From: an uncultured SAR86 cluster bacterium
GTDB taxonomy: Bacteria > Pseudomonadota > Gammaproteobacteria > Magnimaribacterales > AG-339-G14
DNA length: 64,000 nt
Direction of reading: 5' to 3'
Assembly: GCA_902540995.1 (NCBI GenBank)
Contig: CACBOY010000001.1
Span: forward strand, 62,001 to 126,000
Shown here: positions 4,693 through 59,051 of the stretch, piece by piece
How the letters are laid out: the number at the start of each line of letters is the position of its first letter
Position numbering within the stretch: position 1 is the first letter of the stretch
Notes under the pieces: model-generated
The model's input: the letters and a program-made list of their open reading frames with translations, nothing else
Told to the model about the DNA's origin: nothing
Database searches by the model: none
Position numbers and translations under genes: made by a program

Positions 4693-4716
4693 TAGTAATT
4701 TTTTTGGGAGAAAAAA

Positions 4717-5853
4717 ATGTCATTAGTTTTGAATGAGGAGCAAGTCTTTTTAAAAGATAGTGCCAAAAAATTCGCATCAGAAAAGACTCCTACTACTCAC
4801 TTTCGTGAAGTAAGGGACAGTGAAATCGATAACTGCTATGACGATAAAATTTGGCAAGAAATGGTATCACTTGGTTGGACCGGTATTTTAGTTCCTGAAG
4901 AATTTGGTGGGTCAAATTTTGGAGTAGCTGGCATCTCTTCTATTTTAGAGGAGCTTGGTAGAACACTAACTCCTTCCCCTTTATTTTCTACCGCTGTTGT
5001 AGGTGTAAGCCTTATAAAGCATGCGTCCGATGATGTAAAAAAAGATATTCTTACAAAAGTTGTTCAAGATGGTTTGAGACTCTGCTTTGCCATCGAAGAA
5101 AGCAATCATCATGATCCAGTTAAAATATCTTGTGAAGCAAAAAAAGATGGCAGTAATTTCATAATTTCAGGAGAAAAGTCCTTTGTAATTGATGGTGGTT
5201 TTTCAGATAAAGTCATTGTTGCTTGTAGGACTTCAGGAGAAGAAGGCTCTAAAGATGGCCTGTCTCTTTTTGTCTTGGATTCTGATTCAAAGGGTTTGAC
5301 CATTACGGCCACTAAGATGGTAGATTCTAGAAACGCGGCAAATATGAAATTTGAAAATGTTAAAATTCCTTCAGAAAAGTTAATTGGAAAAGAAAATGAT
5401 GCCTATGAAATTATTGAATCAGTACTGGATATTTCTAGAGCTGCAATTTCTGCAGAAATGTTAGGTAGCGCTCTTCAAGCTTATCAAATTACTCTTGATT
5501 ACTTAAAGGAAAGAGAACAATTCGGTTCAAAAATTGGTTCCTTTCAAGCCCTTCAGCATAGAGCTGCAATTATGTTTTCTGAATTAGAACTATGCAAATC
5601 ATGTGTTATAGAATCTATAACTTCTTTTGACGAAGGAGGAAATGATTCTGAGAGATTAGCAAGTCTATCGAAAGCTAAAGTTGGAGAAGTATTTCATTTG
5701 ATCTCTAACGAATCAGTTCAAATGCATGGCGGAATAGGTGTTACAGATGAGTATGATATTGGACTCTACCTAAAACGAGCTAGAGTAGCTGAACAAATTT
5801 TTGGAGATTCTAATTTTCATAAAAATAGATATGCCGAATTAACAGGCTATTAA
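4717..5853 (+). CDS. Acyl-CoA dehydrogenase family protein (likely partner subunit)
   Basis: GWTGILVPEEFGGSNFG, QFGSKIGSFQALQHRAA, QMHGGIGVTDEYDIGLYLKRA; SD gggaga just upstream. Confidence 0.92.
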   Translation: MSLVLNEEQVFLKDSAKKFASEKTPTTHFREVRDSEIDNCYDDKIWQEMVSLGWTGILVPEEFGGSNFGVAGISSILEELGRTLTPSPLFSTAVVGVSLIKHASDDVKKDILTKVVQDGLRLCFAIEESNHHDPVKISCEAKKDGSNFIISGEKSFVIDGGFSDKVIVACRTSGEEGSKDGLSLFVLDSDSKGLTITATKMVDSRNAANMKFENVKIPSEKLIGKENDAYEIIESVLDISRAAISAEMLGSALQAYQITLDYLKEREQFGSKIGSFQALQHRAAIMFSELELCKSCVIESITSFDEGGNDSERLASLSKAKVGEVFHLISNESVQMHGGIGVTDEYDIGLYLKRARVAEQIFGDSNFHKNRYAELTGY

Positions 5854-21872: not shown

Positions 21873-21894
21873 GGATAAATAAAAGGAGAGAAAA

Positions 21895-58842: not shown

Positions 58843-58907
58843 ATTATGGTGACAAGACGATGTGTATAGTTGCGCCCAACATAAAATTTAACACACATCA
58901 TCTCGCC

Positions 58908-58943
58908 AAAAAAAGCGAGCCTTTTATGGGGAAAAGACTCGCT
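58908..58943 (-). terminator. Intrinsic (Rho-independent) terminator
   Basis: Minus strand AGCGAGTCTTTT-CCCCAT-AAAAGGCTCGCT then a 7-T run (first T shared with the stem): 12-bp stem with one G-U pair. Confidence 0.8.
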
Positions 58944-58990
58944 GAATCCAGATTTAGGAGAGTTTCTTTGGGAGAAAATGAAAATCTGAA
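58908..58990 (-). ncRNA. Candidate small RNA with anti-Shine-Dalgarno loops and terminator (5' end uncertain)
   Basis: Minus strand TTCAGATTTTCATTTTCTCCCAAAGAAACTCTCCTAAATCTGGATTCAGCGAGTC...: CAGATTT/AAATCTG stem enclosing TCTCCC and CTCTCC motifs, then the terminator. Confidence 0.4.
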
Positions 58991-59051
58991 TAAATGTATG
59001 ATATATAAATAAAATTTATATTGGGTTATAAAATACTTAAATTTAGTTATA

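Follow-up and report, generated by a model that had tools for sequence, protein, structure and literature searches.

In Xanthomonas, the small RNA (sRNA) sX13 carries C-rich apical loops, represses mRNAs with G-rich motifs near the start codon and is active without Hfq (PMC3771888). Here we describe a putative sRNA of about 85 nt on the minus strand at 58992-58908 of a 64,000-nt stretch of DNA (the window; GenBank assembly GCA_902540995.1, contig CACBOY010000001.1, positions 62,001 to 126,000) from an uncultured SAR86 cluster bacterium. SAR86 is among the most abundant lineages of the surface ocean and is hard to culture. The family f1 to which the window belongs comprises four genera, named g1 (its own) to g4, and was covered by 40 genomes. 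Like sX13, the SAR86 RNA is gammaproteobacterial, has C-rich loops and is predicted to act independently of Hfq; however, sX13 consists of three stem-loops with 4C motifs that address 4G target motifs with unconserved flanks, whereas here the flanks of the Shine-Dalgarno (SD) core are matched as well and Hfq is undetected, and no Rfam family joins the two. For LhrC1-5 of Listeria Hfq is likewise not required, for example in the action of LhrC on lapB (PMC4132741). These sRNAs are multicopy, Gram-positive and equipped with three UCCC sites, whereas the SAR86 RNA occurs in one copy per genome, holds both main seeds in one loop, shows a third C-rich loop in g1 only and has other neighbours. C-rich loops are also found in CcsR1-4 and are thus shared with the SAR86 RNA. 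CcsR1-4, stress sRNAs of the photo-oxidative stress network in the phototrophic proteobacterium Rhodobacter sphaeroides, differ from it in being processed from the ccaF1 co-transcript, in existing as four homologous copies and in interacting with Hfq (PMC8307010). Rfam 15 returned no match above the gathering threshold; sub-threshold covariance similarity over one shared stretch was seen to Pseudomon-1/ErsA (RF01719) and the Betaproteobacteria toxic sRNA (RF02278), the scores, 12.8 and 15.7 bits where gathering requires 50, being weak and far below membership. As there is no match at gathering level and the RNA belongs to none of these systems as far as membership could be tested, it is best called a putative new family within the known class of trans-acting sRNAs that block SD sequences with C/U-rich loops.

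We put at roughly 80% the probability that the element is a stand-alone trans-acting regulatory sRNA of SAR86 family f1 which pairs with ribosome-binding sites, a reading that draws on computed conservation, structure, synteny, a promoter motif and co-variation of target sites in g1. The original prediction, a first reading of the window's letters, had proposed at this place a stem enclosing two C/U-rich motifs, followed by a 12-bp terminator with a T7 tail; all of these were borne out by direct read (UAUUCAGAUUUUCAUUUUCUCCCAAAGAAACUCUCCUAAAUCUGGAUUCAGCGAGUCUUUUCCCCAUAAAAGGCUCGCUUUUUUU) and by a terminator scan that returned exactly the 58943-58914 hairpin. On the minus strand, CAGATTT (58988-58982) and AAATCTG (58955-58949) flank TTTTCTCCCAAAGAAA and CTCTCC. 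They form part of hairpin 1 (58946-58991), in which a closing stem of 58991-58982 with 58955-58946 bounds a large loop that holds both motifs. Motif 1, UUUUCUCCCAAA (58967-58978; family core UUUCUCCC), has its CCC unpaired in the ensemble, and motif 2, CUCUCCU (58956-58962; family core UCUCUCC), is unpaired as well, so that both are candidate anti-SD seeds. Hairpin 2 (58908-58943) is the intrinsic terminator, with a stem of 12 bp, the C-rich loop CCCCAU and a U7 tail ending at 58908; its loop is C-rich (UUUUCCCCAUAAAA) in g1 alone, and this third C-rich loop had been overlooked in the original prediction. The predicted ends lie near 58991 (5') and 58908 (3'). The fold of 83 nt reaches -23.9 kcal/mol, compared with -10.5 +/- 2.4 for shuffled sequences (z -5.6), none of which was equally stable. 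A small inner stem of hairpin 1, UUUCU/AGAAA, occurs in g1, g2 and g4 and is absent in g3, implying that what the design requires is one large closed loop bearing both C/U-rich seeds and a second hairpin after it.

The RNA is present at the same place in 15 of the 16 g1 genomes with 96-100% identity, the sole exception being a genome whose contig ends inside the photolyase gene. Within g1, mean pairwise identity amounts to 97.4% in the RNA, 91.6% in the preceding 62 bases, 81.9% in the coding sequence of the upstream saccharopine-dehydrogenase-like gene and 75.6% in that of the downstream photolyase gene, and bases A2 to A39 of the RNA are all invariant. A covariance model built from g1 (R1) retrieved full-length relatives in g2, g3 and g4, with the same synteny in one fully read locus of each. 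A broader model (R2), covering the same extent as R1 at 58908-58992, detected a single copy at E<1e-9 in 36 of the 40 family genomes, that is, in all with a readable locus, including genomes outside its training set (G018, G021, G023 and G030; E 1e-11 to 1e-12); the four misses are G007, G020 and G024, where the photolyase runs off the contig, and G028, where the locus is not assembled. Outside the family, R2 gave no convincing relative in a 200-genome sample of the order, so at the sensitivity of R1 and R2 the RNA is restricted to the family. The best hit in other SAR86 families (E 0.011 with R2) is weak, lacks the CCC motif and was not accepted as a homologue; apparent second copies in g3 from R1 lie inside coding sequence and vanished with R2, and matches to viral contigs came down to a 20-nt coincidence in one phage sequence, with the hairpins lacking.

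Comparison between genera reveals that the stems change and the loops stay. Stem 1 reads CAGAUUU/AAAUCUG in g1, UCUGAGA/UCUCAGA or CAAGU/ACUUG in g2, UUCAGG/CCUGAA in g3 and, in most of g4, CGAG/CUCG; despite the rewritten stems, all four genera retain UUUCUCCC and UCUCUCC. In an alignment made from sequence only, two-sided changes occur in 17 of 21 pairs and 89.9% of cells pair, against 74.4% in shuffled and 31-47% in slid controls. A model-guided alignment, which favours structure by construction, raises the two-sided changes to 24 of 27 pairs. Judged by these alignments, the RNA structure is under selection and not a product of chance. The C/U-rich loop motifs are unpaired and fixed while the stems drift, as in SD-blocking sRNAs of this class, and conservation of the C-rich loops beyond the terminator, proposed beforehand as a test, is evident from the invariant A2-A39 stretch in g1 and the cores kept in four genera. 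The alternative raised at the time, that the plus strand is merely the decayed leader of a lost gene, fails, because its ATG is absent in the other genera and because the constraint follows pairing of the minus-strand RNA.

For a broader view of ribosome sites, open reading frames (ORFs) were called and gene starts scanned in parts of G009 (g1, 640 kb), G016 (g2, 800 kb), G017 (g3, 758 kb) and the window's own contig (142 kb). The first seed reads CUCCCAAAG in g1, CUCCCCAG in g2 and g4, and CUCCCCCAU in g3. Co-evolution of leaders with the seed would predict that in g1 a TTT precedes GGGAG sites more often than ribosome binding explains. This was the case in 11 of 32 GGGAG sites of g1 versus 5 of 128 other GGAG sites (Fisher p 9e-6), with no excess in g2 (2/29 versus 11/160) or g3 (0/25 versus 14/160), where the loops lack AAAG. 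Likewise, TTTGGGAG occurs in 11 start regions of G009 versus 0.56 expected from its overall frequency. Two of these, G009_0486 and G009_0606, are probably false internal starts and were rejected as matches; without them the test for TTT in g1 still gives p 1e-4. Perfect antisense stretches of 10 nt or more were found at 10 starts of g1, compared with 2.1 for a shuffled sRNA and equalled in none of 200 shuffles. Sites complementary to the RNA thus lie over ribosome-binding sites beyond chance, in g1 only, and this genus-specific co-variation supports pairing of the RNA with SD regions and, with it, the trans-acting anti-SD sRNA originally proposed, as far as sequence can speak.

Among the individual targets, the original prediction had named an acyl-CoA dehydrogenase and an enoyl-CoA hydratase, of which the former stands and the latter does not. 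Within the window TTTGGGAGAAAA has exactly two copies, at 58967 and at 4703, which is weak evidence on its own; the second (4703-4714, plus strand) lies over the ribosome site of the acyl-CoA dehydrogenase gene at 4717-5853, and this predicted site is conserved in g1. In 14 genomes, assessed by intersecting secondary BLAST matches with gene starts, perfect complementarity of 16 nt from -18 to -3 was counted in eight (G002, G004, G005, G007, G009, G010, G011 and G014), with 15 nt in G001 and a 12-nt run in the window itself; the more divergent G013 lacks the site. The proposed site of the enoyl-CoA hydratase (gene start 21895), aaaaggagagaaaaatg at 21883, matches over 7 nt only (AGGAGAG). Matches of at least 7 nt occur in 138 of 649 start regions, about a fifth, so this site is weak and indistinguishable from background, and the gene was rejected as a target. 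Further predicted sites precede a MAPEG protein (TTTGGGAGAAATAAATG or a near variant, ending at the start codon in all six genomes shared by the two sets of matches listed, G000, G004, G007, G008, G009 and G010), a GST (TTTGGGAGAATAATTATG, at least six g1 genomes, gene identity read in G009 and G000) and a CaiB-type racemase (TTTGGGAGAAATATAAATG, at least five g1 genomes, gene identity read in G009). TTTGGGAGACTTATG, found in seven g1 genomes (G009:C2:541719, G000:C10:25536 and five more) ahead of a gene that was not read, possibly marks a further target. As a separate observation, the starts of three small membrane proteins, G009_0159 (L113), G016_0022 (L138) and G017_0404, pair well with the RNA of their own genus; G009_0159 is without a Pfam match.

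The unusual part would be the probable target proteorhodopsin, a light-driven pump and the strongest predicted target in g1, whose gene (PF01036, E 7.5e-47) was overlooked in the original prediction because it lies outside the window. With a proteorhodopsin query of 69 residues, the last few of them approximate, the g1 matches span residues 1-68 at 93-96%. Of the g1 genomes, 13 have the gene, and their leader reads ATTTAGGAGAGTTaatttataaattaaatcaCTTTTGGGAGGatttATG, the spacer run being two bases shorter in G012; 12 of them combine ATTTAGGAGAGTT with TTTGGGAG in the leader, and in G007 one base of the upstream site is altered. The upstream block is antisense to seed 2 over 13 nt and is too far 5' to be an SD, while the second block, of 8 nt, spans the SD and is complementary to seed 1, and the order of the two blocks is correct for antiparallel pairing. 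Upon cofolding of the RNA with this leader, both helices form together with a AAUUUAUAAAUU hairpin between them. In g1, the duplex energy over -65 to +15 ranks proteorhodopsin first of 649 starts (-29.4 versus a mean of -10.2), and no leader shuffle out of 300 and one sRNA shuffle out of 300 reaches its combined run length (21). In g3, the seed variant CCAUAAU can pair over the proteorhodopsin start codon AUUAUGG (-22.1, rank 7 of 779), and in g2 the gene ranks 18th of 789; pairing with proteorhodopsin in these two genera is suggestive only. By simple duplex energy from -35 to +15 across genera, proteorhodopsin is not singled out, the g1/g2 pair giving p 0.0075, 8th of 361 groups; a threefold combination, at 5e-4, was picked after the fact and is not relied on.

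If the RNA acts as these sites suggest, it would have a promoter of its own, probably activator-dependent, located between the saccharopine-dehydrogenase-like and photolyase genes, and hairpin 1 would display the seeds UUUCUCCC and UCUCUCC on its large loop, with a third supplied by the terminator loop in g1. By base pairing, the seeds would cover purine-rich ribosome-binding sites in a group of mRNAs, in g1 predicted to include those for proteorhodopsin, the acyl-CoA dehydrogenase, the MAPEG protein, the GST, the CaiB-type racemase and others, and would thereby block translation initiation without Hfq or ProQ. Neither Hfq (PF17209) nor ProQ (PF04352) was detected at profile sensitivity in any of the 40 family genomes, with E. 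coli as a positive control for both, so that the RNA would act unaided or with another protein; their apparent absence is unexpected for Gammaproteobacteria. Going by the links to photolyase and proteorhodopsin, the inducing signal might be light or photo-oxidative stress. To our knowledge, no mechanism for the control of proteorhodopsin in SAR86 is known, and the open-access titles and abstracts searched contained no report of an sRNA in SAR86 or of sRNA control of proteorhodopsin. We tentatively propose, at slightly below even odds, that this Hfq-free sRNA is a post-transcriptional switch of phototrophy in SAR86, which clamps the proteorhodopsin mRNA at two sites (the SD and an upstream anchor, with the AAUUUAUAAAUU hairpin folded between), acts on fatty-acid catabolism genes as well, and has had loop and target re-matched across genera. 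Such a covariation-supported sRNA in a streamlined gammaproteobacterium without detectable Hfq or ProQ would offer a concrete regulator with named targets and exact base pairs, and may represent a natural example in which the loop of an sRNA and the ribosome sites that it targets have changed jointly between genera.

Several points weigh against the reading as a trans-acting sRNA. When the net cofolding energy includes the cost of opening, proteorhodopsin falls to rank 5, with the MAPEG protein, the acyl-CoA dehydrogenase and the GST as the top three, and in g2 and g3 it is only in the top few percent, where a heterologous loop sometimes scores equally. In g2 and g3, exact antisense matches to the loop of the same genus show no clear enrichment, so the support from target covariation comes from g1 alone, and since the g1 genomes are related, conservation of sites within g1 does not represent independent events. 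The gene starts were those given by a simple ORF caller on part of each genome. Moreover, the U-tract of hairpin 2, strong in g1 and moderate in g2, is weak in some g4 genomes and lacking in g3, and in these the 3' end may arise by processing or another mechanism.

This weakness of the terminator in g3 and some g4 genomes makes read-through plausible and bears on the most serious rival, which we nevertheless consider unlikely: that the two hairpins act in cis in the photolyase mRNA, as a 5' leader or attenuator, any short RNA being a prematurely ended leader. The photolyase gene (PF00875, PF03441; 57451-58842, minus strand) is the downstream neighbour in the family loci examined, and in the loci read from all four genera the RNA lies upstream of it in the same orientation, as a leader would. 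However, ahead of the photolyase no purine-rich SD was found that the loops could cover, either in the leader of the window's own genome or in the loci examined, and in g4 the DNA between the RNA and the photolyase has been swapped out while the RNA is retained. Fixed loops on drifting stems are, besides, the pattern of intermolecular seeds, and it is distant SDs that co-vary with the loop in g1.

A 3' untranslated region-derived RNA or a plain terminator of the saccharopine-dehydrogenase-like gene (PF03435; 59052-60233, minus strand), the upstream neighbour, is less probable still. The RNA does start about 60 nt past the stop codon of this gene and finishes in a terminator, but hairpin 1 and its loops, which termination does not need, are conserved at least as well as the terminator, and a conserved promoter-like block stands between the stop codon and hairpin 1. 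In the window this block contains a candidate activator site, the direct repeat (59023-59051, minus strand) of TATAAC(TAA) from 59051 and TATAAC(CC) from 59030 with its copies spaced 21 bp apart at about -59 and -38, and a candidate -10 element TATCAT (58998-59003, minus strand) 6-7 nt ahead of the predicted 5' end; a consensus -35 was not found at this candidate promoter. Two copies of (T/A)ATAAC with starts 21 bp apart follow directly on the upstream stop codon in 17 of 17 loci from four genera, with no second convincing copy of the repeat pair in the rest of the stretches searched, and an AT-rich -10-like element lies shortly 5' of hairpin 1 in the relatives too. Repeats two helical turns apart, the nearer one over the -35 place, would fit the layout of an activator-dependent promoter. 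Of the features of a short RNA gene, the promoter-like block is thus conserved and a terminator is present in g1 and g2, the U-tract being missing in g3. An RNA that titrates a protein or acts generically on translation without specific mRNA pairing is conceivable insofar as C/U-rich loops resemble the anti-SD of 16S rRNA, but it is the least credible reading, as the loops show CCC and not the GGA of CsrA decoys, and as complementarity in target leaders extends past the SD core to the flank (AAAG in g1) solely in the genus whose loop carries it, a match that a generic decoy does not need.

Two further structures came to light beside the sRNA. The photolyase leader (58851-58907, minus strand) contains another conserved structure, in which a long stem, GGCGAGATGATGTGT...ACACATCGTCTTGTC, encloses a TTGGGC core that is conserved too. 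This structure is seen with altered stem sequence in g1, g2 and g3 and is absent in g4; it may be either a structured leader or a DNA operator. In genus g15 of family f3, the loci L086:899-976 and L087:1006-1083 of two related genomes have in common two hairpins resembling an sRNA and ending in a terminator of 8 U, whose similarity to the RNA described here is at chance level and which looks like a separate sRNA.
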